NCBI GenBank assembly: GCA_017480565.1
Contig: JAFVAL010000076.1
Coordinates: forward strand, 1 to 46,939
Source: Lachnospiraceae bacterium
Lineage (GTDB): Bacteria; Bacillota; Clostridia; Lachnospirales; Lachnospiraceae
Length of the DNA: 46,939 bases
Reading direction: 5' to 3'
Shown here: in pieces, positions 14,861-46,939 of the stretch
Numbering within the stretch: the first letter of the stretch is position 1
Layout: every line of letters starts with the position of its first letter
Position numbers and translations under genes: made by a program
The notes under the pieces: model-generated
Seen by the model: the letters and a program-made list of their open reading frames with translations, nothing else
Database searches by the model: none
Told to the model about the DNA's origin: nothing

Positions 14861-15068
14861 ATCTGATTCTGTGATACGATACTACAAACATACCATAATA
14901 CCATTCCCGTGTGCGCCATCTACTCCACTTATCTAGGTGCCGCATGCAAGAAAAGGAGGAGATACCGCTAGCTCGCGGTGCGGCAGTGTGGAGACCTGTC
15001 GTAAGGCAGAGCGCGAAGCGCCTGTGAGGGCACATCAGGCGGAGGTCATGTGTCCAGAGCTCTATGAT
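14861..15068 (+). other. 208-nt intergenic leader of the msmK-type gene
   Basis: No gene seen. The second half can fold: ACCGC/GCGGT nested in TGCCGC/GCGGCA (14939-14996), GCGC-GAA-GCGC near 15011-15021, and CGCCTG/CAGGCG near 15019-15042, with GACCT (about 14994) able to pair with AGGTC at the only strong GGAGG (15041-15045). This could be a structured 5' leader; no terminator for the GH32 gene is obvious. Confidence 0.35.
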
Positions 15069-16253
15069 ATGGCAACAGTACAGTTAAAAAACATTAAGAA
15101 GGTTTATCCATTTATCAGCGGAGAGCAGAAGAAGCCGAAGAAGAAAAAGAACGCAAATGAGCCTGAGAAGAAGAAAAGCAATCTGCAGATTACAGACGAA
15201 GGCGTTGTCGCAGTGCAGCAGTTTAGTCTGGACATCGCAGACAAAGAGTTCATCGTTCTTGTCGGACCTTCCGGCTGCGGAAAATCTACCACCCTTCGTA
15301 TGGTGGCCGGCCTTGAAGACATTTCCGACGGTGAGCTGATCATCGACGGTAAGGTTGTCAACGATGTGGCACCGAAGGATCGTGATATCGCCATGGTTTT
15401 CCAGAACTATGCTCTGTATCCGCATATGACCGTGTATGACAACATGGCATTCTCTTTGAAGCTTCGTCATGTGCCGAAGGATGAGATCGACCGTCAGGTT
15501 CGCCAGGCGGCAGAGATCCTTGACATCACCCAGTATCTGGATCGTAAGCCGAAAGCACTTTCCGGCGGCCAGAGACAGCGTGTTGCAATCGGTCGTGCAA
15601 TCGTTCGTGCACCGAAGGTCATGCTGATGGATGAGCCTTTGTCCAACCTGGATGCGAAGCTTCGTAACGAGATGCGTGCAGAGATCATCAAGCTGCGTGA
15701 GCGTATCGATACGACTTTCATCTATGTCACCCATGACCAGACCGAGGCAATGACCCTTGGTGATCGTATGGTTATCATGCGCGATGGTTACATTCAGCAG
15801 ATCGGTACGCCGCAGGAAGTCTTTAACCAGCCGGCGAACCTGTTTGTTGCAGGATTCATCGGTATGCCTGTCATGAACTTCTTTGACGGAAATCTTGAGA
15901 GACGCGGCGACAAGTATTTTGTCAAGCTTGCGAACTATGAAGTAGAGCTTTCTCCCGAGAAGGAAGCGCGCCTGTTAAAGAAGAATGTACAGAGCCAGCC
16001 GGTCACCCTTGGTGTTCGTCCGGAGCATACGGATGTTGCCGAGGCAGGTGTTGCGGCAAGAGTGGATGTCGCAGAAATGATGGGTTCTTCCGTACATTTG
16101 CATGTAACGGCAGAGGGACGTGATGTCATCATCATCGTTCCGACGATTGATCTGTCTTCCAGCTATCATATCGGAGATACCGTACACTTTACCTTCGACG
16201 GCAAGGTGGCACATGTCTTCAGCAAGGAAGATGACAAGAACTTAGAGTTCTAA
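15069..16253 (+). CDS. msmK: MsmK/UgpC-type sugar ABC transporter ATP-binding protein
   Basis: This ATPase energises CUT1 sugar importers that lack their own. Walker A GPSGCGKST, Q-loop FQNYALYPHMTVYDN, signature LSGGQRQRVAIGRAI, Walker B VMLMDEP and the H-loop are all intact. The C-terminal OB-type regulatory domain (about residues 255-394, GVRPEHTDV) is present. I chose MATVQLKNIKKVY (15069) because it matches the family N-terminus, although the best ribosome site lies upstream of an in-frame ATG at 15048. A Lys-rich insertion of about 30 residues (KKPKKKKN, then EKKKSN) separates the first strand from the domain that usually follows directly. It lies next to the fructan lipoprotein genes and probably serves the importer at 2404-5923, perhaps other importers too. 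Confidence 0.93.
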   Translation: MATVQLKNIKKVYPFISGEQKKPKKKKNANEPEKKKSNLQITDEGVVAVQQFSLDIADKEFIVLVGPSGCGKSTTLRMVAGLEDISDGELIIDGKVVNDVAPKDRDIAMVFQNYALYPHMTVYDNMAFSLKLRHVPKDEIDRQVRQAAEILDITQYLDRKPKALSGGQRQRVAIGRAIVRAPKVMLMDEPLSNLDAKLRNEMRAEIIKLRERIDTTFIYVTHDQTEAMTLGDRMVIMRDGYIQQIGTPQEVFNQPANLFVAGFIGMPVMNFFDGNLERRGDKYFVKLANYEVELSPEKEARLLKKNVQSQPVTLGVRPEHTDVAEAGVAARVDVAEMMGSSVHLHVTAEGRDVIIIVPTIDLSSSYHIGDTVHFTFDGKVAHVFSKEDDKNLEF

Positions 16254-17763: not shown

Positions 17764-18756
17764 ATGGAAAAGAATGTTTATGTACCGATGGAAGAGCGTA
17801 CCGGGAAGATTTCTGTGGTATATTTCACCAGAGATCTGTCTCCGGAGGGATTAAAGAAGGTTTATGAGAAGGTCAACGGTAAGATCACAGGCAAGGTTGG
17901 CATAAAGCTGCATACCGGTGAGCCGAAGGGACCAAACATCATTCCTCGTCCTTGGGTGAAGGAGCTTCTGGCAACAGAGCCGGAGCTTAAGGATGCTGTG
18001 ATTGTTGAGACGAATACCTACTATGACGGTGATCGCTACTATACCGAAGATCATAGAAAGACCCTGGAGATCAACGGCTGGACTTTCTGCCCTGTGGACA
18101 TCATGGATGAAGAGGGAACGGTGCTGCTTCCGATTGCGGGCGGTAAGTGGATGAAGGAGATGTCTCACGGCTCTCATATGACGAACTATGATTCTCTCGT
18201 TGTTTTGACACATTTTAAGGGACATATGATGGGCGGATTCGGCGGTTCCAACAAGAATATCGGTATCGGCTGCGCGGATGGACGGATCGGTAAGAAGTGG
18301 ATTCACACCTACGAAGGATCTGATGATATGTGGTCGATCGCGATGGATGAGCTGATGGAGCGCATTACAGAGTCGACCAAGGCGACGATTGACTTCTTTG
18401 GCGAGAACATTTGCTATGTGAATGTGCTTCGCAACATGTCGGTTTCCTGTGACTGTGAAGGTGTCGCAGCTGCTCCGGTCGTAACGCCGAATGTTGGTAT
18501 CGTTGCCTCGCTTGATATTCTGGCAGCGGACCAGGCAAGTATTGATTTGGTCTATGCGATGAAGGAAGAGGATCACCACGATCTGGTGGAGAGAATCGAG
18601 ACCAGACACGGACTCAGACAGCTCTCTTACATGAAAGAGATGGGCATGGGCAATGACCGCTATGTGCTGATCGATCTGGACAACGACGAGGCAGAGATCA
18701 CGGCAGCGGACGGCGTGGCGCATGTGGTGCCGTTCGTGCAGGTGCCGAGACCGTAA
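17764..18756 (+). CDS. DUF362 domain-containing protein
   Basis: 330 residues. The segments GKVGIKLHTGEPKG, the THFKGHMMGGFGGSNKN region and IGIGCADGRIGK match the DUF362 family, often found near iron-sulfur and redox genes; the reaction is unknown. It lacks the ferredoxin extension that many family members carry, but its upstream neighbour is a ferredoxin-fused reductase. The start follows AAGGAG with good spacing. A clear terminator follows. Confidence 0.87.
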   Translation: MEKNVYVPMEERTGKISVVYFTRDLSPEGLKKVYEKVNGKITGKVGIKLHTGEPKGPNIIPRPWVKELLATEPELKDAVIVETNTYYDGDRYYTEDHRKTLEINGWTFCPVDIMDEEGTVLLPIAGGKWMKEMSHGSHMTNYDSLVVLTHFKGHMMGGFGGSNKNIGIGCADGRIGKKWIHTYEGSDDMWSIAMDELMERITESTKATIDFFGENICYVNVLRNMSVSCDCEGVAAAPVVTPNVGIVASLDILAADQASIDLVYAMKEEDHHDLVERIETRHGLRQLSYMKEMGMGNDRYVLIDLDNDEAEITAADGVAHVVPFVQVPRP

Positions 18757-26470: not shown

Positions 26471-27229
26471 ATGTACCGAGATGAGATTTTAGAGCTTTTG
26501 CGCGGCGTCAAAGAAGGGACTGTGACACCGGAGGAAGCGCTGCATGATTTAAAACGGGAGCCATTTGACGACCTGGGGTATGCCAAGGTCGATGTGCACC
26601 GCGAGCTGCGCCAGGGCGTGCCGGAGGTGATTTTCGGTGCGGGCAAGACGACAAAGCAGATTCGCGGTATTGTAGGTTCGATGAAAGCGCGCGGCAGAGA
26701 AGACATTTTAATTACAAGATTGTCGAAAGAGGCTGCGGCGGAGCTTGTTGACCTTGACCTTGAATATCACGAGCTTGCGAGAATCGGGATTGTCTCGCAT
26801 AACACTTCGAAAGAACTGACCGGAAGCATCGTGATTGCATGCGGCGGAACGAGCGATATTCCGGTGTGTGAGGAAGCGGCGATTACGGCAGAGCTCTTTG
26901 GAAATAAAGTAACAAGACTTTACGATGTTGGCGTGGCCGGGATCCACAGGCTGCTCTCAAACATGGATCCGCTCATGGATGCACGCGTTGTAATCGCCGT
27001 GGCGGGGATGGAAGGTGCGCTTGCGAGTGTGGTTGGCGGCCTCGTAGACTGCCCGGTGATCGCGGTGCCGACGAGTGTTGGGTACGGTTCGAATTTCCAC
27101 GGATTGTCCGCACTCCTTTCGATGCTCAATTCCTGCGCAAGCGGCGTGAGTGTCGTCAATATCGATAATGGATTCGGCGCGGGATATCTAGCGAGCATGA
27201 TCAATAAGATGGAAAGCGCAAAAGATTGA
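26471..27229 (+). CDS. larB: Nickel pincer cofactor biosynthesis protein LarB
   Basis: LarB carboxylates and hydrolyses nicotinic acid adenine dinucleotide in the first step toward the nickel-pincer nucleotide cofactor. The 252-residue protein has the family's N-terminal YRDEILELLRGVKEGTVTPEEAL and a PurE-like C-terminal domain (VIFGAGKTTKQI, then GGTSDIPVCEEA and the VGVAGIHRLL region). It is followed 21 nt later by larC. Confidence 0.95.
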   Translation: MYRDEILELLRGVKEGTVTPEEALHDLKREPFDDLGYAKVDVHRELRQGVPEVIFGAGKTTKQIRGIVGSMKARGREDILITRLSKEAAAELVDLDLEYHELARIGIVSHNTSKELTGSIVIACGGTSDIPVCEEAAITAELFGNKVTRLYDVGVAGIHRLLSNMDPLMDARVVIAVAGMEGALASVVGGLVDCPVIAVPTSVGYGSNFHGLSALLSMLNSCASGVSVVNIDNGFGAGYLASMINKMESAKD

Positions 27230-27250: not shown

Positions 27251-28546
27251 ATGAAAACTTTGTATTTGGAATGTAATATGGGCGCAGCCGGGGATATGCT
27301 TACGGCTGCCCTTTCCGATCTGTTAGAGGATAAGGAAGCGTTTGTCGCGAAGATGAACGGACTGGGGATCGAGGGGCTTTCCTTCTCGCTGGAACCCAGG
27401 GTGAAGATGGGGGTGACTGGCAATCATGCGACGGTGAAGGTGCACGGCGACGAAGAAGACTGGCATGACTCCGGCGAGGAGGAACACGAACACCACCATC
27501 ATGATCATGAGGAGGAGCACGAACACGATCATCATGATCATGAGGAGGAGCATGAACACCATCATCATGATCATGATCACGAGCATCATCACCATCATAC
27601 GAGCGTGGCGGATATCAATGGAATGATTGAAAAGCTTCCGGTCTCCGAGAAGGTGAAGCATGATGCAAAGGCAGTCTATCATGAGATTGCAGAGGCGGAG
27701 AGCGCCGTTCACGGACGTCCGGTGGAGCAGATCCATTTCCACGAAGTGGGGACGATGGATGCACTCGCGGATGTGACGGCAGTTTGCCTGTTGATGGAAG
27801 AGCTTGCGGTGGATCAGGTGATTGTGTCTCCGATTCATGTGGGAAGCGGCCAAGTACGCTGTGCGCATGGTATTCTTCCTGTACCGGCACCCGCGACTGC
27901 GCACATTTTAAAAGGTGTTCCGACCTATGGCGGGGAGATTCGCGGAGAGCTTTGCACACCGACCGGCGCTGCACTGCTTAAGTATTTTGCGGCTTCCTTC
28001 GGACCGAGACCGGTGATGAAGGTCGAAAAAGTCGGCTACGGCATGGGAAACCGCGACTTCCCGGTGATGAACTGTGTCCGGGCTTATCTTGGCGAAACCG
28101 AGGACGGCGGCTTGGAGAAGATTACCGAACTTTCCTGCAACATCGATGATATGACAGGAGAAGCACTCGGGGGACTGTACGAGACACTCACAGCCGCAGG
28201 CGCGCTGGATGTAGCACTGATTCCTGCGGTGATGAAGAAAAACCGCCCGGGACATCTGCTCCTTTGCATCGTAAAGCCTGAGAAGGCTGACGCGGTGGCA
28301 GAAGCCATCTTACAAAATACCGCGACGATCGGCGTGCGCAGAAATGACATCGTCCGCTACGTACTTGACAGGGAACAAGGCGCTTTGGAGACCGCGTACG
28401 GACAGATCAGGTATAAAAGGTCGTTCGGCTACGGGGCAGACAAGGTGAAACCGGAGTGGGAAGATCTTGCTTCTGCGGCGAAGGCTGCAGGCGTATCTAC
28501 CTCGAAGGTGAGAGAAGCCTTTTATAAAGAATTTAATAAAGATTGA
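27251..28546 (+). CDS. larC: Nickel insertion protein LarC (single uninterrupted frame)
   Basis: LarC inserts nickel in a CTP-dependent step to finish the nickel-pincer nucleotide. The N-terminal LYLECNMGAAGDML motif, the internal His-rich segment (residues 76-116, about 23 His) and the C-terminal ferredoxin-like domain (NIDDMTGEALGG) are all present in one 431-residue frame, whereas in Lactobacillus plantarum the two halves are joined by ribosomal frameshifting. The third biosynthesis gene, larE, is not in the window. The client enzyme is probably the LarA-family protein at 31055. Confidence 0.95.
   Translation: MKTLYLECNMGAAGDMLTAALSDLLEDKEAFVAKMNGLGIEGLSFSLEPRVKMGVTGNHATVKVHGDEEDWHDSGEEEHEHHHHDHEEEHEHDHHDHEEEHEHHHHDHDHEHHHHHTSVADINGMIEKLPVSEKVKHDAKAVYHEIAEAESAVHGRPVEQIHFHEVGTMDALADVTAVCLLMEELAVDQVIVSPIHVGSGQVRCAHGILPVPAPATAHILKGVPTYGGEIRGELCTPTGAALLKYFAASFGPRPVMKVEKVGYGMGNRDFPVMNCVRAYLGETEDGGLEKITELSCNIDDMTGEALGGLYETLTAAGALDVALIPAVMKKNRPGHLLLCIVKPEKADAVAEAILQNTATIGVRRNDIVRYVLDREQGALETAYGQIRYKRSFGYGADKVKPEWEDLASAAKAAGVSTSKVREAFYKEFNKD
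27476..27574 (+). repeat. Three tandem 33-bp repeats encoding the LarC histidine-rich tract
   Basis: Codons for EEEHEHHHHDH, EEEHEHDHHDH and EEEHEHHHHDH follow one another. The number of units could change by slippage and would alter nickel-binding capacity without shifting the frame. Confidence 0.85.
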
Positions 28547-28554
28547 TAGAGAGG

Positions 28555-28593
28555 AGCACTCCCCGGCCAGTGGCCGGGGAGTGCTTGTGTTTT
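28555..28593 (+). terminator. Strong terminator after larC
   Basis: AGCACTCCCCGGCC and GGCCGGGGAGTGCT form a perfect 14-bp stem with loop AGT, followed by TGTGTTTT. It also separates the convergent SGNH hydrolase gene. Confidence 0.88.
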
Positions 28594-28598
28594 GAGGG

Positions 28599-29255
28599 TT
28601 ATAAGCTTGCCAAAAATCCGTAGACCTTATCGGCGATCTTCTCGTGCCCTGCGTCGTTGGGGTGCAGCCCGTCCGGTACATACAGCTCCTGGATGATCGG
28701 AACGGCGGGCTGCAGGCCGCTAGTACGGTAGAGATCCAGGGTTGGAATCGCGTAGTAGGCTGCGATCTCGATGATCGCATCGACGTAGGTTTCGAGGGAG
28801 GCGAGTCTTCTCTGCCCGAGCTCATTGAAGGATAGATCATTCTCGTCGAGGCGATGCAGGGGCGTTAAAAAGACAAGTTGTGAGGATGGATAGCGTTCGA
28901 TTAACGTGGTGCACAGCTCATGGACTGCGCCGCAGAACGTCTCGGGATCGTTGTCGTAGAGATCACCAAAGAGTGCATCGCCGTGGCCGAAGTCGTTGGT
29001 GCCGCCGAAGACAACGACGATGTCTGCGTCGGGGATCATATCCTCCACACGGGTGATGAACTGCTTGTCCCACTTTTCCTTCGGAGAGGGGGTGTGCTGC
29101 GGGGCGAGGCGGGTGCCGCCGATCCCATAGCCAAAACACTGCGCGCCGGCGCGTGCTTCGATGCGCTTCCAGTAAAGATTGTCTAAGTTTTCTACGCCAT
29201 GTCCTTCTGTGATACTGTCGCCAAGGAAGGCAATTTTTTTATTCTTTAGTTCCAT
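28599..29255 (-). CDS. SGNH/GDSL-family hydrolase
   Basis: 218 residues, no signal peptide. Block I (IAFLGDSITEG, Ser), block III (FGGTNDFGHGD, Asn) and block V (DGLHPNDAGH, Asp/His) of the SGNH esterase fold are all present. GGAG lies 7 nt before the ATG at 29255. Such enzymes deacetylate sugars or lipids; substrate unknown here. It is a lone minus-strand gene separating larB-larC from the LarA-containing operon. Confidence 0.92.
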   Translation of the reverse strand: MELKNKKIAFLGDSITEGHGVENLDNLYWKRIEARAGAQCFGYGIGGTRLAPQHTPSPKEKWDKQFITRVEDMIPDADIVVVFGGTNDFGHGDALFGDLYDNDPETFCGAVHELCTTLIERYPSSQLVFLTPLHRLDENDLSFNELGQRRLASLETYVDAIIEIAAYYAIPTLDLYRTSGLQPAVPIIQELYVPDGLHPNDAGHEKIADKVYGFLASL

Positions 29256-29423
29256 TGGAAAGCTCCATTTCTTTGTTATTATACCTACGATTATAGACGT
29301 AGATGTGCCTCGTTGCAAGAAGAGAAGAAAAGGATGTCTTTTTACAAAAAGTGCGGTATAATGTTTAACATAAATGGATCGGCAACATTTTTATAGAATG
29401 CAAGAAAGAGGGTGACCTTTCGG

Positions 29424-30272
29424 ATGAAACACATTTACCTGAATTTAAAGCGGTTTGATGTTCCTGTAGAATATGGTGGGGTGAATCGTCTGGCACCGGT
29501 GGCAGACTGGGGAAGGACGATTGTGCTTAAGACGCAGGGAGCGTTAAAAGCCTATGATCCCGCAGAGGTCGACTTTACGATGTATCTGCCGGAGGCGCAT
29601 CTGCTTGGCGCGATCGCCGCGCGGGATGCGGATAGCCCGGTCAAGATCGGAGCACAGGGTGTTTATCATCAGGACGTCGCGCCCGGTGGGAATTTTGGCG
29701 CATTTACAACACTCCGGCCTGCGTCTGCTGTCAAAGCCCTTGGCTGTGATAGCGTGCTGATTGGTCACTGCGAGGAGCGCAAAGATAAAATGTATCTCTT
29801 TCAGTACCTTGCGGGCATGGAGCAGAAGCAAGCGGCTTATGTGACCAACCGCCTGCTTAACGAAGAGGTGATTCGCGCGCAGGAGAGAGGCTTGACCGTC
29901 CTTTACTGCATCGGTGAAACGAGTGAGGAGCAGCCGGAGTGGGAGAGAGTGCTAAAGCTCCAGCTGATGACTGGACTCATGGGAGCAGACATGTCCAAGG
30001 TTGTGATCGCTTATGAGCCGGTCTGGTCGATTGGTCCCGGCAAGACCCCAGCAGACAAGGACTACATCACAAAGATTGCCCGCTACATCAAGGAACTGAC
30101 CGGCGGTCTGGACGTGGTTTATGGCGGTGGCTTAAAGAGCGCGAACGCCGAGATGCTCGCGTCGATCCCGGAGATTGACGGCGGGCTGATCGCACTGACA
30201 AGATTTAGCGGAGAGATCGGTTTTTATCCGGAAGAATATCTGGAAATCATTCGTTTGTATTTGGGGAAATGA
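29424..30272 (+). CDS. Triosephosphate isomerase family protein with divergent phosphate loop
   Basis: 282 residues. The catalytic triad of TIM is kept: Lys9 in YLNLKRF, His115 in LIGHCEERK, and Glu198 in IAYEPVWSIGPGKTP. The loop that holds the substrate phosphate, normally GALVGGASL, reads GGLIALTRFSGEIGF, and the serine of the GHSER motif is Cys116. It is therefore likely a TIM paralogue acting on another sugar phosphate, as known for the tetrose-phosphate isomerases of erythritol catabolism (family knowledge; assignment inferred). First gene of the five-gene operon with LarA and an FGGY kinase. The start has GAGGGTGA upstream; a TATAAT box at 29357-29362 lacks a clear -35. Confidence 0.88.
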   Translation: MKHIYLNLKRFDVPVEYGGVNRLAPVADWGRTIVLKTQGALKAYDPAEVDFTMYLPEAHLLGAIAARDADSPVKIGAQGVYHQDVAPGGNFGAFTTLRPASAVKALGCDSVLIGHCEERKDKMYLFQYLAGMEQKQAAYVTNRLLNEEVIRAQERGLTVLYCIGETSEEQPEWERVLKLQLMTGLMGADMSKVVIAYEPVWSIGPGKTPADKDYITKIARYIKELTGGLDVVYGGGLKSANAEMLASIPEIDGGLIALTRFSGEIGFYPEEYLEIIRLYLGK

Positions 30273-30278
30273 GGTCGC

Positions 30279-31058
30279 ATGGGAGTAACATTTGCGGAAA
30301 CACCCGAGGTGTTTGGATCATTGCATTTGTGGATTGTGGCAGGAATTTTGGCCTGCCTGATCGGGCTTGGCTTTGTGCTGAAGAACTGGTCTGAGAAAAG
30401 GCTTCTTCGGCTGATCGGGATCCTCGGTGTTTTGATGATTGTGACAGAAATCTGGAAGCAGTGGTTTGTCTGGGTGTACGTCTACGAGGGAGAGCGATCT
30501 ACGTGGTTTTTCCCATGGCAGCTTTGCAGCATGTCGATGTATGTGTCCGCACTGGTGCCGGTGTTAAAGGGAAAGGCGCAGAACACTGCTCTGGTGTTTT
30601 TAGCTACGTTCTCAGTGATTGGTGCGGTGTTTGCACTGGGATTTCCGGGCGATATGATGCGGCCGCAGATTCTGTTGTTCATCCACAGTTTCTGGTATCA
30701 CGGGACGATGCTCTTGGAAAGTCTGGCCGCCACATTTGTCTTGAGAAATCGGGAAAAGGTGCGGTTTGTACCAGCGATCTGTTGGTTTCTGGTTATGGCC
30801 GTGATCGCGCAGATCATCAATGTGGTCAGTTACCGTGTGATCGGCGATACGCGGCTTTCCTCCAACATGTTCCAGATCACGCCTTATTACCCCTCGACGC
30901 AGCCAGTATTCCACGAGATCGCACTTGCGATCGGAGTTTGGCCTGAGATCATTCTTTATCTTGGGTGTATCATCTTTGGCGGGTTTCTTCTTTTTCAATT
31001 GCTGCGAATCATTATCGCAAGACATACGCGTGTGAATCAGGAAAGGTTGGACAAATGA
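30279..31058 (+). CDS. YwaF/TIGR02206 family integral membrane protein
   Basis: 259 residues with about seven transmembrane helices. FFPWQLCSMSMYVSALVPVLKG, the HSFWYHGTMLLESL segment and conserved aromatic residues agree with the YwaF family, whose function is unknown. It starts 6 nt after the isomerase gene and its TGA overlaps the ATG of the LarA gene, so it is translated with both. In this setting a role in uptake or membrane handling of the pathway substrate is possible but unproven. Confidence 0.85.
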   Translation: MGVTFAETPEVFGSLHLWIVAGILACLIGLGFVLKNWSEKRLLRLIGILGVLMIVTEIWKQWFVWVYVYEGERSTWFFPWQLCSMSMYVSALVPVLKGKAQNTALVFLATFSVIGAVFALGFPGDMMRPQILLFIHSFWYHGTMLLESLAATFVLRNREKVRFVPAICWFLVMAVIAQIINVVSYRVIGDTRLSSNMFQITPYYPSTQPVFHEIALAIGVWPEIILYLGCIIFGGFLLFQLLRIIIARHTRVNQERLDK

Positions 31059-32542
31059 AACAGTTTGAATTTGAGTATGGCACGGGGACGATGAGCGCGA
31101 TGCTGCCGGATGAGACGGATGTCTTTATTCCTGGTGTGACGGTGGAAGATCCGCCGCACATCCCGGAGAGTGAGCTTGAGGCGGCTTATCTTGATAGCCT
31201 GGCGCATCCGATCGGGATGCCTCGCGTATCAGAGCTTGTGAAGAAGGGAAGCAAGGTGGTGTTTGTGGTGCCGGACCGTGTCAAGGGCGGCGAGCAGCCT
31301 ACCTGCCATCGCAGGCTTTCGATTCGTTATTTGTTAAATGAACTCTACACCGCCGGCGTGGAGAAGAAAGACATTTTATTTATCATTTCCAACGGACTGC
31401 ATCCAAGAAGCACAAACAAGGATGCACTGGCACTCTTTGGCGAGGAGCTCTATCACGAGTTCTGGCCGACCGGGCAAATCATCAGCCACGATTCGGAGGA
31501 TCAAGAGCACATGGTAGACCTTGGCTGTACCGAGGCGGGTGATCCCGTGAGAATGAACCGGTATGTCTTTGAAGCGGACCTGCCGATCCTGATTGGCCAT
31601 GTGCAGGGCAATCCCTACGGCGGTTATTCCGGAGGCTACAAGCACAGCTCCTGCGGGATCACGGACTGGCGCAGTATCGCCAGCCATCACGTCCCTTCCG
31701 TGATGCACCGGGATGATTTTACACCGGTCAATGGTGGAAGCCTCATGCGGGATAAGTTCAACCAGATCTCGATGAAGATGGAAGAGGCGATGGGCCATCC
31801 GTTCTTCTGCTGCGATGCGGTGCTCGATTCCAAGGCGCGTCAGATCACGATTTTCTCCGGCTATGCGAAGGAAATGATGCCGCTCTCCTGGAAGGTGGCA
31901 GATCAGAGAACCTACGTGCACTGGGCAGAGAAGAAGTATGATGTACTGGTCTTTGGCATGCCGCAGAAGTTCCACTACGGGGACGGCATGGGCACGAATC
32001 CGATCATGATGATGCAGGCTCTCTCCGCACAGGTGCTGCGCTTTAAGCGTGTGATGAGCGACCGGTGCGTGATCATTTGCTCAAGCATCTGCAACGGCTT
32101 CTTTAACGATGATAAGTGGCCGTATCTCAGAGAGTGCTACGAATGGTTCCAGCGCGATCAGATGAATGAACTGCCGGACATGGACCGACTCGGAGAGTAC
32201 TTCGCAACGAATGAGGAGTACATCAGAAAGTACCGGTTTGCGAATGCATTTCACCCGTTCCACGGCTTCTCGATGATGGCCTGCGGGCACATCGCGGAGA
32301 TGAATACGAGTGCGATCTACATCGTGGGGGCGGAGAATCCCGGCTATGCCAGAGGCATGGGACTTAAGACGCGGGCGACTTTTGAGGAGGCGCTGGAGGA
32401 CGCGAAGAAGAAATATGTCGGGGAGCATCCGAACATTCTGGCCCTTCCGCTGACATTTAAGACGGCAGCGGTTCATTTGTGCATGAAGGATCCGGCGAAA
32501 GATCTCATGGACGCCTACGGACACAGGCCGGGGCATTGCTGA
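31055..32542 (+). CDS. LarA family nickel-pincer-dependent 2-hydroxyacid racemase/epimerase
   Basis: 495 residues, longer than Lactobacillus LarA (424). The N-terminal lactate-racemase domain shows VVPDRVKGG, NGLHPRS (His116, equivalent to His108), GYSGGYKH (Lys196, tether of the nickel-pincer nucleotide, Lys184 in LarA) and SHH (His212, nickel ligand, His200 in LarA). The second acid/base residue, His174 in LarA, aligns with Asn186 here, so mechanism or substrate may differ. Known relatives racemise malate, phenyllactate, 2-hydroxyglutarate or epimerise gluconate. With an FGGY kinase and a TIM paralogue in the operon, a sugar acid is a good candidate substrate. ATG at 31055 overlaps the stop of the preceding gene; larB and larC lie about 2.5-4 kb upstream. 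Confidence 0.88.
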   Translation: MKQFEFEYGTGTMSAMLPDETDVFIPGVTVEDPPHIPESELEAAYLDSLAHPIGMPRVSELVKKGSKVVFVVPDRVKGGEQPTCHRRLSIRYLLNELYTAGVEKKDILFIISNGLHPRSTNKDALALFGEELYHEFWPTGQIISHDSEDQEHMVDLGCTEAGDPVRMNRYVFEADLPILIGHVQGNPYGGYSGGYKHSSCGITDWRSIASHHVPSVMHRDDFTPVNGGSLMRDKFNQISMKMEEAMGHPFFCCDAVLDSKARQITIFSGYAKEMMPLSWKVADQRTYVHWAEKKYDVLVFGMPQKFHYGDGMGTNPIMMMQALSAQVLRFKRVMSDRCVIICSSICNGFFNDDKWPYLRECYEWFQRDQMNELPDMDRLGEYFATNEEYIRKYRFANAFHPFHGFSMMACGHIAEMNTSAIYIVGAENPGYARGMGLKTRATFEEALEDAKKKYVGEHPNILALPLTFKTAAVHLCMKDPAKDLMDAYGHRPGHC

Positions 32543-32554
32543 GAGGAGACGATC

Positions 32555-34048
32555 ATGAACTGTTATCTTGGCGTGGATATCGGGACAACGAATTTGAAGG
32601 CAGCCGTCTTTACGGTGGAAGGTGAGATGCTTGCATTTTCTTCGGCTCCGAACATCAATCATCACCCTCGGCCGGATTACGGCGAGTTTGATATGGAAGA
32701 GATCTGGGCGGGACTTTGCAAATGTATCCGCGAAGTGGTGGATCTTGTCGGCGCGGAACGTATCAAGGGGGTCGGCGTCTCTTCGATGGCGGAGAGCGGC
32801 GTGCCTCTAGACGCAGATGGAAATGTGCTCTATCCGATGATTGCCTGGTATGATAACCGAACCGAACCGCAGATGGAAGAGCTTGGAAGAAACCTCGGGC
32901 GCAGGGAGATCTACCAGATCACCGGGCAGAATCTGGGACCGAAGTTTGGCTTGTGCAAGATGATGTGGATTCGCGAGAATCATCCAGAGGCTTTGGAGCA
33001 GATGGCGCACTGGCTCTCGACGGAGGATTATATCATCTACCGGCTGAGCGGTGAGTTTGCGACGGATTACACGATGGCCGGGCGGACGATGGCGTTTGAT
33101 GTGACGAAGCTTTCTTGGTCGGAGAAAATGCTTTCGCAGGCGGGCGTGTCTCCAGAGGTGATGCCTAGAGCCTATCCGGGCGGGGCAAAGGTCGGAGAGG
33201 TACATGAAAAAGCTGCAGGAGAGACCGGCTTGCTTCCCGGCACGGCAGTGGTGACCGGTGGGCATGATCATTGCTGTGCAGCGGTTGGCATCAATATCTT
33301 TGAGGATGGTGCGGTGCTTGATTCGATGGGCACGGCGGAGACCTTGATGATCGCAACCGACCAGCTCATGCTCAATGACCTTTCTTTTGAGAAAAGCTAT
33401 ACGGTATACCCGCATTGTGGTAAGCGGCTTTACCGCGTGATGGCACCAGGCTCCGGTCCGGGCGTCGTGATCGACTGGATTTTCCGAAATCTTGGCGCGG
33501 ATCTGGAGGGAAAAGGCGCGCAAAACGGCACTTCTCGGTATACAGAGATGGAGCGTGTCATCGGTGAGAAATCCGGCCGCGGCCTCTGGTTTTATCCGAT
33601 GTTACGCGGTGATTTGAAAAATGCGTTTGCAGGAGCAACCTTCCGTGGTGTCCGGGACTTCCATGACCGCGGTGATCTGATCGCAGCTGCATTTAACGGA
33701 CTCATTTACGAATCCAAGCAGAATATGGATACGATGCACGAGGTCTTTGGGGAAAGCTTTGATCGGTGCCGCGTGGTGGGCGGCGTGTCTAAATCCGACT
33801 ACATCATGCAGAAGAAAGCGGACATTTTTAAGAACCGGATGGAAGTGCCCATCAACCATGAGTCTGCCTGCTTTGGCGCGGCGCTTTTGGCTGCGATCGG
33901 TGTCGGAGAGCTGAGCTTCGATGACATGGGACGCTTCTATCACTGCGACCGGGCATTTGAGCCGAGGTCGGAGGAAGACTACGAACAGGACTACGAAACT
34001 TACTTAAGGAACCGCGCGGCGGTGTTAGCGCTTTATGAGGAGGAATAA
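32555..34048 (+). CDS. FGGY-family carbohydrate kinase
   Basis: 497 residues with the two actin-like domains of FGGY kinases: phosphate-1 loop GVDIGTTNLKAAVF, a sugar-binding region with the motif IAWYDNRTEPQ, catalytic Asp in TGGHDHCCAA, and the late GGVSKSDYIMQKKADIF and GAALLAAIG segments. The substrate of this family (xylulose, fuculose, gluconate, erythritol, glycerol) cannot be told from motifs alone. It follows the LarA gene by 12 nt with GAGGAG upstream. The order LarA-kinase suggests that an epimerised sugar or sugar acid is then phosphorylated. Confidence 0.92.
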   Translation: MNCYLGVDIGTTNLKAAVFTVEGEMLAFSSAPNINHHPRPDYGEFDMEEIWAGLCKCIREVVDLVGAERIKGVGVSSMAESGVPLDADGNVLYPMIAWYDNRTEPQMEELGRNLGRREIYQITGQNLGPKFGLCKMMWIRENHPEALEQMAHWLSTEDYIIYRLSGEFATDYTMAGRTMAFDVTKLSWSEKMLSQAGVSPEVMPRAYPGGAKVGEVHEKAAGETGLLPGTAVVTGGHDHCCAAVGINIFEDGAVLDSMGTAETLMIATDQLMLNDLSFEKSYTVYPHCGKRLYRVMAPGSGPGVVIDWIFRNLGADLEGKGAQNGTSRYTEMERVIGEKSGRGLWFYPMLRGDLKNAFAGATFRGVRDFHDRGDLIAAAFNGLIYESKQNMDTMHEVFGESFDRCRVVGGVSKSDYIMQKKADIFKNRMEVPINHESACFGAALLAAIGVGELSFDDMGRFYHCDRAFEPRSEEDYEQDYETYLRNRAAVLALYEEE

Positions 34049-34050
34049 CA

Positions 34051-34677
34051 ATGGATTTCACAGCGAAAAGAAATGAATTATGGTCACAGAAGGTGATCAA
34101 GGGGTTGGCTTCCCGCAACATGACCGGTTACTATGCAAAGACGAAGGAAGAGGCCTGTCAGATCGCACTCTCTTTGATTCCGGAAGGTGCAACGGTCACG
34201 ATGGGCGGGGGTGCAAGCATCAGCGAGTGCGGCCTGCTGGACGTGGTAAAGGGAGGCAACTACCAGTTTATTGACCGCAATGCCTATGCAGATCGCCGGG
34301 AGGCGCAGTTGCTGGCCTACGATGCGGATGTCTACCTGATGAGCGCAAATGCGATGACCGAGGACGGCGTGTTGGTCAACATTGACGGTAATGCGAACCG
34401 TGTCTCTGCGCTGGCTTATGGTCCGAAGAAGGTCATTCTTGTGGTGAGCATGAACAAGATCTGTAAGGACGTGGATTCTGCGATGAAGCGTGCAAGAAAT
34501 GTCGCCGCGCCGATCAACGCAGGGCGGTTTGGACTAAACACGCCTTGTTCGAAGACCGGGGCATGTGCAGACTGCAAATCGCCGGATACTGTGTGCTGCC
34601 AGTTCTTGATCACGAGGTATTCGAAACACAATGACAGAATTCATGTGATTCTGGTGAATGAGGATCTGGGATTCTAA
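34051..34677 (+). CDS. LUD domain (LutB/LutC-type, DUF162) protein
   Basis: 208 residues. The LUD domain signature is seen in EGATVTMGGGASISECGLLDV and VYLMSANAMTEDG, with the tail NTPCSKTGACADCKSPDTVCC carrying several cysteines. Lactate-utilisation LutBC proteins have this domain, but solitary LUD proteins have no settled function. It starts 2 nt after the kinase gene with GAGGAGG upstream, so it belongs to the operon. Its presence with a LarA homologue again points to 2-hydroxyacid metabolism. Confidence 0.88.
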   Translation: MDFTAKRNELWSQKVIKGLASRNMTGYYAKTKEEACQIALSLIPEGATVTMGGGASISECGLLDVVKGGNYQFIDRNAYADRREAQLLAYDADVYLMSANAMTEDGVLVNIDGNANRVSALAYGPKKVILVVSMNKICKDVDSAMKRARNVAAPINAGRFGLNTPCSKTGACADCKSPDTVCCQFLITRYSKHNDRIHVILVNEDLGF

Positions 34678-36009: not shown

Positions 36010-36120
36010 AAGCCTCATCTTTCGCATGCGCCGGAATTAGCACCACACCGGCAAATGCACCGGCAGGTTGCTGTGAGATCATAGGGCCGTTCCCTTCCTC
36101 ACTCTGGATAAGGTGTCTTA
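36010..36120 (-). ncRNA. SAM-I (S-box) riboswitch
   Basis: The minus strand reads CTTATCCAGAGTGAGGAAGG, then GGCCCTATGA, CAGCAACC, a GCCGGTG...CACCGGC-type stem, GGTGCTAATTCC and GAAAGATGAG. These are the conserved S-box core elements in the right order, including the kink-turn and the J3/4 sequence. It precedes the metK terminator and leader. Confidence 0.96.
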
Positions 36121-46856: not shown

Positions 46857-46939
46857 GCAACGACGAAGTACATAGCTGAACAGCAAGGGTGTCCATCACG
46901 AGGTGGAATCTGAAGGAAGCTGTAGGCAAACCCTTGGCC
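46808..46939 (+). mobile_element. Group II intron, 5' end (continues past the window)
   Basis: The sequence has the typical domain I start of bacterial group II introns: a GCGCGCC/GGCGCGC stem, then CTAACGGGTGAAAGTCCCG, then AAGGGTGTCCATCACGAGGT, GGAATCTGAAGGAAGC and GTAGGCAAACCCTTGG. The first nucleotide cannot be fixed exactly (46805-46809). The reverse transcriptase/maturase would lie downstream of the window. It interrupts the gene at 45720. Confidence 0.88.

Follow-up and report, generated by a model that had tools for sequence, protein, structure and literature searches.

The locus treated here raises the question of what a LarA homologue lacking its second catalytic histidine does in the cell, and which of its neighbours take part. 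The window, i.e., the whole stretch of DNA analyzed, comprises 46,939 nucleotides (positions 1 to 46,939 of contig JAFVAL010000076.1, assembly GCA_017480565.1, from a Lachnospiraceae bacterium), and the homologue is the third of five genes lying between positions 29424 and 34677. The original prediction took these five genes as one pathway built on a nickel-pincer epimerase and a sugar kinase. Our answer is that the conserved unit is almost certainly the pair formed by LarA and a gene resembling triosephosphate isomerase (TIM), and that the chances are about even, judging from sequence, that this pair closes a glycolysis-like route for sugars carrying a non-phosphate anion (X) at C6, most likely a sulfur oxyanion. 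The five genes are the following.

29424-30272, + strand: TIM-like isomerase (core gene); TIM fold, Lys9/His115/Glu198, altered phosphate loops 7 and 8
30279-31058, + strand: TMEM164/YwaF-like membrane protein, a lineage-specific neighbour (PF14808, 3.6e-14; TIGR02206, 30.2 bits, cut-off 75)
31055-32542, + strand: single-histidine LarA homologue (core gene; Lar_N, 4.8e-38)
32555-34048, + strand: FGGY-family sugar kinase (FGGY_N, 1.3e-68; best NCBIfam match XylB, TIGR01312, 270.7 bits)
34051-34677, + strand: stand-alone LUD-domain protein (LUD_dom, 9e-49)

The positions and the tight spacing given in the original prediction hold, the gaps being 6, -4 (an ATGA overlap of the TMEM164-like and LarA genes), 12 and 2 nucleotides. 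Pfam assigns all five families and NCBIfam agrees except for LUD, which has no NCBIfam match. The TIM-like, TMEM164-like, LarA and FGGY proteins are below every NCBIfam cut-off; the XylB-type xylulokinase model TIGR01312, which the FGGY protein fails, requires 380.25 bits.

Which neighbours travel with LarA was analyzed in two sets of genomes. An order-level scan found a window-type LarA at 1e-60 in 29 of 392 genomes, the window genome included. For the other set, at least 563 relatives were found in named genomes and the top 80 retained; these loci are mutually related, 4 of them overlap the 28 order-level loci, 24 are shorter than 15 kb, and the gene calling in the scripts was crude (longest open reading frames). 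The TIM-like gene lies beside or near LarA in 27 of the 28 order-level loci (in genome G214 it is on another contig) and is present in 69 of the 80 named loci. One of these (L087) has the order larB-larC-TIM-LarA as in the window, without FGGY. Against the pair as a fixed unit stand the 11 named loci without a TIM-like gene (L062, L067-L070, L089, L091, L118, L119, L139 and L140). In L067, L068 and L069 the contig ends soon after LarA and a TIM gene could be hidden; L062 and L070 come from well-sampled close relatives and have genes for an NMT1-type transporter and an FAD/NAD oxidoreductase beside LarA, a context which in L067-L069 is similar but cut. The L062/L070 context may reveal the substrate of LarA. 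In a further locus (L103:7357-10002) genes which we take, from reading alone, to be UlaG/UlaF/UlaE-like ascorbate genes are found immediately upstream of LarA-TIM.

By sequence, the window LarA is a member of the single-histidine subfamily published in 2025. Its best solved relatives are LarA_Bw (PDB 9q3j, 977.9 bits) and LarA_Sp (9q2u/9q3k, 782.6 bits), and it has in common with them the Asn for His174 and the conserved His/Lys set. Asn occupies the position of His174 in LarA_Lp, and His108 is kept. This His/Asn pair is invariant in 23 of 23 aligned rows (there H117/N187; the LarA reference sequences begin one codon before the ATG and the residue numbers of alignment A1 are thus +1), the named loci all have Asn (80 of 80; a pattern match showed it in 73 and inspection by eye in 7), and 79 have His, with 1 unmatched. 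Lactate racemase LarA and malate racemase Mar2 have the Lar_N domain, the nickel-pincer nucleotide (NPN) lysine and one catalytic His in common with the window LarA but differ in their second catalytic His, which here is Asn; the protein thus lacks the two histidines of a lactate racemase and reaches 108.7 bits with NF033504 (cut-off 460). The parts of PMC12611868 consulted define the subfamily by this Asn, describe both structures as octameric, and state that LarA_Sp has no detectable lactate racemase activity (data not shown there) and carries a ligand of about 316.5 Da. The label "epimerase" of the original prediction is therefore doubtful. The same parts of that paper note sugar-metabolic neighbours (TIM, phosphofructokinase-like, glucose-6-phosphate isomerase, aldolase, glucosamine-6-phosphate isomerase and aldose-1-epimerase-like genes, and sugar ABC transporters), in whose stead the window operon has FGGY, LUD and TMEM164; they only suggest carbohydrate metabolism, give no substrate, and make no mention of altered C6 sites, a sulfonate-type importer or TauE genes. 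According to the consulted part of Desguin et al. 2020 (PMC7583248), a one-histidine LarA might transfer the hydride to a neighbouring position. The window genome has two further LarA homologues with just 28-29% identity to the window LarA, in the N-terminal part, and searches of plasmids and viral contigs found no LarA on these.

The TIM-like protein has the TIM-barrel fold and retains the catalytic Lys9/His115/Glu198, but its loops 7 and 8 read YGGGLK and ALTRF against the canonical GGS and GG, and its scores with the matching NCBIfam TIM models do not reach the cut-offs. Fold searches with its structural model gave, among the matches listed (50 each), TIMs and an L-erythrulose-1-phosphate isomerase (11ef). 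The gene is not the glycolytic TIM, since a canonical TIM coexists in 27 of the 29 LarA-bearing genomes. Lys238 is invariant and Arg260 is found in the closest relatives, both near the former phosphate loops. That the window genome has no canonical tpiA and uses the TIM paralogue for glycolysis was considered and rejected: gap-pgk lie at the end of contig C28 (L241), which stops just past pgk, and in a relative tpiA comes right after pgk, so the apparent absence is due to the contig end. Contig C71 of the window genome carries a second, degenerate TIM-like paralogue (L161:9829-10704, 152 bits to the TIM-like profile), in which the catalytic Lys and a normal loop 6 seem to be missing.

In the relatives the pair usually lies among further paralogues of sugar enzymes, a kind of "shadow glycolysis"; the paralogues of one cluster (L034) served as references for counting them in the 80 named loci, with a threshold of 40% identity. 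Class II fructose-bisphosphate aldolase (FBA) is found in 57 loci (59 before the 40% filter), phosphofructokinase (PFK) in 55, NagA in 38, NagB in 35 and glucose-6-phosphate isomerase (PGI) in 35; 62 loci have at least two of these paralogues and 13 have none. Regulators around the pair are of the LacI (20 loci), ROK (16) and two-component (20) types, and MFS_2 sugar symporters occur in 4 loci.

The residues of these paralogues were tallied in all sequences passing length and identity filters and compared with the canonical enzymes which the window genome encodes, except that the canonical TIM was taken from a relative, and the paralogue profiles were compared with solved structures in the PDB. 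Alignment A1 holds 22 of the 28 order-level loci and A2 18 of 27, each plus the window; the profiles were made from subsets (17/53 PFK, 17/55 FBA, 15/35 NagB, 14/36 NagA, 16/33 PGI, 13/22 substrate-binding protein and 16/65 TIM rows). The residues which we take to bind the C6 phosphate in PGI, FBA, NagA, NagB, PFK and TIM are replaced in family after family. In the PGI-like proteins the loop SKSGTTT has become AKNFETL in 34/34 (E in 33), in the FBA-like ones Ser50 is Ala in 55/56 (1 gap) and there is an insertion, in the NagA-like ones an Arg is His in 36/36, and in the NagB-like ones Thr is Val and Lys is His in 35/35. Loop 7 Ser of TIM is Gly in 66/66 and loop 8 Gly-Gly is Ala-Leu in 65/66 (1 gap). 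PFK is the weakest case: Gln-Arg is Gly-Arg in 52/53 and Met is Ser in just 31/53, and the Lys-Arg-Lys of the window genome's own PFK, gapped in 53/53, is absent from solved relatives too. The NagB-like position corresponding to Asp141 is Asn in 34/35, as in one solved ordinary NagB. The catalytic residues examined are retained, i.e., the metal and dihydroxyacetone phosphate (DHAP)-side residues of the aldolase in 56/56, the NagA metal ligands in 36/36, NagB Asp/His/Glu in 35/35, PGI Glu/His/Lys in 34/34, PFK Lys/Asp in 53/53 and TIM His/Glu in 66/66. These replacements are most simply read as having one shared cause, namely that C6 bears an anion other than phosphate while the C1/DHAP side has stayed as it was, and it is very probable that the C6 of the pathway sugar carries no phosphate.

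What X might be is suggested by the transport genes. A substrate-binding protein is encoded in 29 of the 80 loci (31 have a match, 2 of them being of chemoreceptor length only). Its closest solved relative is the taurine-binding protein TauA (7.5e-23), followed by a putative exported protein, a nitrate-transport protein and an aliphatic-sulfonate binding protein, and it comes near but under the NCBIfam SsuA cut-off. ABC-ATPase matches, other transporter types included, are found in 33 loci. TauE/SafE genes (PF01925) are present in 26 of the 80 loci against about 0.87 expected, although the loci are not independent; the expectation assumes about 2 genes per genome, since 29 genomes gave 61 matches (a count which includes fragments). 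The TauA-like binding protein and the TauE/SafE genes together suggest a sulfur oxyanion at C6, to which we give somewhat better than even chances. GlcNAc-6-sulfate (6-sulfated N-acetylglucosamine) is a sugar of mucin, and the records of many of the named relatives give a gut or faecal source; together with the NagA/NagB entry these sources suggest GlcNAc-6-sulfate as substrate. Enzymes releasing it are the subject of PMC11659886.

The model which we propose has as its core the TIM-like protein and the single-histidine LarA, the cofactor of which would be supplied by larB, larC and a larE located elsewhere. A 6-X sugar would be imported by the TauABC/SsuABC-like transporter and deacetylated by the NagA-like enzyme; NagB-like deamination, or PGI-like isomerization, would give 6-X-fructose, which the PFK-like kinase would phosphorylate at C1. 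Cleavage by the class II aldolase would then yield DHAP and glyceraldehyde-3-X. The TIM-like protein would isomerize this C4-C6 fragment to dihydroxyacetone-X, and LarA, by a one-sided NPN hydride transfer, might make the fragment usable or free X, which TauE/SafE would export. X would most likely be a sulfate ester or a sulfonate, with GlcNAc-6-sulfate as the favoured example. What X is, in which order the steps follow and which reactions the TIM-like protein and LarA carry out are what we infer from the genes, and the chemistry proposed for LarA is speculative and has a low probability. The families and the reaction order are those of GlcNAc catabolism (NagA-NagB followed by glycolysis), but unlike in the GlcNAc-6-phosphate route the C6-phosphate residues of NagA and NagB are replaced. 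Within the search terms used, the open-licence literature gave neither a description of such a gene set together with altered C6 sites nor one of GlcNAc-6-sulfate use that dispenses with a sulfatase.

Several observations weigh against this model. Sulfate esters, sulfonates and other anions are indistinguishable by sequence, and the importer family also transports non-sulfur compounds. TauE was not seen in 54 of the 80 loci, it is present in just 3 of the 28 order-level loci (0.31 expected), and the one TauE gene of the window genome (contig C70) is unlinked. The PGI-like proteins gain a Glu in the former phosphate loop, which is odd for an anion, and some anion-binding residues remain (PGI Lys in 34/34, NagB Arg in 33/35, FBA Arg and the Arg of DPR in 56/56, PFK Arg in 53/53). 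GH3 glycosidases, found in 13 loci, are unsuited to GlcNAc-6-sulfate, and 17 loci have PGI without NagA/B and without the importer and would need a 6-substituted glucose. Three paralogues of L034 exceed the cut-offs of ordinary families: NagA (TIGR00221, 311.5 against 225.65 bits), PFK (pyrophosphate type, 416 against 273 bits) and the aldolase (ketose-bisphosphate aldolase, 224.9 against 215.6 bits); the NagB-like protein is below its curated cut-off (108.2 against 236.9 bits). Finally, searches of the window genome yielded no PFK-like or aldolase-like paralogue, the best matches (332 bits, 38% identity, and 222 bits, 37%) being at the level of canonical enzymes; the NagA, NagB and PGI matches, 37%, 27% and 41% identical, are canonical-like as well (about 1.4 of 2.78 Mb examined). 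In this genome only the terminal TIM-like and LarA pair is seen, and the pair would therefore be fed differently, by the FGGY kinase or by direct uptake of a C3 compound.

A neutral C6 is an unlikely alternative. The sugar would be a 6-deoxy sugar such as quinovose or N-acetylquinovosamine, cleavage would give lactaldehyde, and the TIM-like protein and LarA would interconvert it with hydroxyacetone or its mirror form. The replaced phosphate residues, including the Glu of PGI, the GH3 glycosidases beside PGI-like genes and the kinship of LarA with lactate-acting enzymes would all fit; a taurine/sulfonate-type binding protein and TauE exporters are ill-suited to a neutral sugar, and the several cationic residues remaining in the paralogues, as well as Lys238 and Arg260 of the TIM-like protein, weigh against this reading too.

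It is likewise improbable that X is specifically a C-S sulfonate handled by a form of sulfo-EMP2, in which a sulfo-amino-sugar or sulfoquinovose would be converted to sulfolactaldehyde and the TIM-like protein and LarA would replace sulfolactaldehyde reductase or dehydrogenase. As described in the part of PMC9594981 consulted, sulfo-EMP2 (SqvD, SqiK, SqiA) also uses a PFK-family kinase and a class II aldolase, of families PF00365 and PF01116, on a C6-sulfo ketose and releases C4-C6 as a sulfur-bearing C3 piece. The same two families are found in the loci of the other genomes, not as paralogues in the window genome, and the importer is related to TauA. Our gene set differs in its PGI/NagA/NagB-like entry, the isomerases found being PGI/NagB-like and not SqvD-like (no family search was aimed at SqvD, YihQ, YihU or SlaB), and in having the TIM-like protein and the NPN enzyme last. 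Moreover, aldolase profile A4 matches FBP aldolases at 9.7e-65 against about 1e-35 for chains 8q57 and 8q58, which we take to be sulfofructose-phosphate aldolases.

It is very unlikely that we are dealing with normal glycolytic isozymes which use phosphates and differ in their regulation: family membership is clear, the catalytic residues are retained and three paralogues pass ordinary-family cut-offs, but C6-phosphate residues are replaced in several families together, and in 27 of 29 genomes the altered TIM has a canonical one beside it.

The neighbours of the pair in the window behave differently from it. LUD orthologues were found in 86 of 299 family genomes; no LarA, TIM or FGGY gene lies within 1.5 kb of the LUD orthologue in the 29 loci inspected, nor of TMEM164 in 22 inspected loci, and the 80 named LarA loci have no LUD, no TMEM164 and, at 40% identity, no FGGY. 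LUD is probably a passenger. One LUD orthologue (L180) adjoins a larE-like gene (51% identity). At 1e-140, an FGGY orthologue is encoded by 3 of 397 family genomes, of which the window genome is one, and apart from the window linkage to LarA is seen solely in the same-genus genome G581, with the order LarA-chrA-chrA-FGGY, an FGGY protein of 64% identity and LUD on another contig than LarA; FGGY is thus a genus-level partner of LarA. The two genes between LarA and FGGY there (L157:1162-2306) are chromate transporters (PF02417), and an oxyanion transporter of this type would fit an anion at C6. The pathway of the original prediction would have LarA epimerize a sugar acid, which FGGY would phosphorylate and TIM isomerize as the phosphate, with LUD and TMEM164 assisting. 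In spite of the tight operon and the LarA-FGGY link in one further species it is most improbable and was rejected on the neighbourhoods, because relatives of LUD and TMEM164 are unlinked to LarA in the loci inspected and those of FGGY are linked to it only within the genus; LarA, moreover, is without its second histidine. The unlinked neighbourhoods elsewhere mean that the five-gene set is a local assembly around the conserved pair. What survives is that the system is centred on LarA, is linked to carbohydrates and involves the TIM paralogue, which is the conserved partner; a single pathway conserved across all five genes does not survive, LUD and TMEM164 being not conserved as partners and FGGY largely not.

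The cofactor genes larB and larC are indeed located upstream, as had been predicted, and both are over their profile cut-offs. Two features separate them from the operon.

26471-27229, + strand: larB, nickel-pincer cofactor biosynthesis (NF033503, 289.7 bits, cut-off 175)
27251-28546, + strand: larC, nickel insertion, with a His-rich stretch (TIGR00299, LarC1, 219.7 bits, and NF052512, LarC2, 133.5 bits, both over cut-off)
28554-28586, + strand: terminator-like hairpin 3' of larC (15 pairs, 11 G-C)
28599-29267, - strand: GDSL hydrolase gene between larC and the operon (PF13472, 5.9e-21)

Because the hairpin and the opposite-strand GDSL gene intervene, larBC are probably in a transcript separate from that of the five genes; it should be noted that terminator-like sites as a class are not enriched in the window (8 seen against a shuffle mean of 8.1). 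The larE-like gene of the window genome (51% identity) is unlinked, on contig C46. Elsewhere in the window a SAM riboswitch (RF00162, 75 bits; 36012-36114, - strand) lies upstream of the gene adjoining LUD, which from reading its protein we presume to be metK-like; a malK-I RNA (RF03069, 133.9 bits; 14905-15074, + strand) precedes an ABC-transporter ATPase gene; and a group II intron-like match (46892-46939, + strand) shows just its 5' part before it is cut by the window end. The protein encoded at 17764-18756 (+ strand), beside an aldo-keto reductase, presumably belongs to DUF362. In the LarA superfamily tree DUF362 is the outgroup (PMC11770544, part consulted).

For the family the result leaves, in place of the broad "carbohydrate metabolism", a smaller set of candidate substrates of single-histidine LarA which can be assayed, namely triose compounds bearing an anion other than phosphate. 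A far-reaching and quite speculative version would be that host-associated bacteria use the GlcNAc-6-sulfate of mucin without a sulfatase, sulfate standing in for phosphate through a duplicated glycolysis, with a new NPN reaction which would be an internal hydride shift or the desulfation of a sulfated triose and not a racemization. If the assignment of sulfur is true, gut Firmicutes and some Spirochaetales would have a new way of using sulfated or sulfonated (amino) sugars, one which would bear on the turnover of mucin, and LarA would possibly catalyze the first NPN reaction beyond racemization or epimerization.

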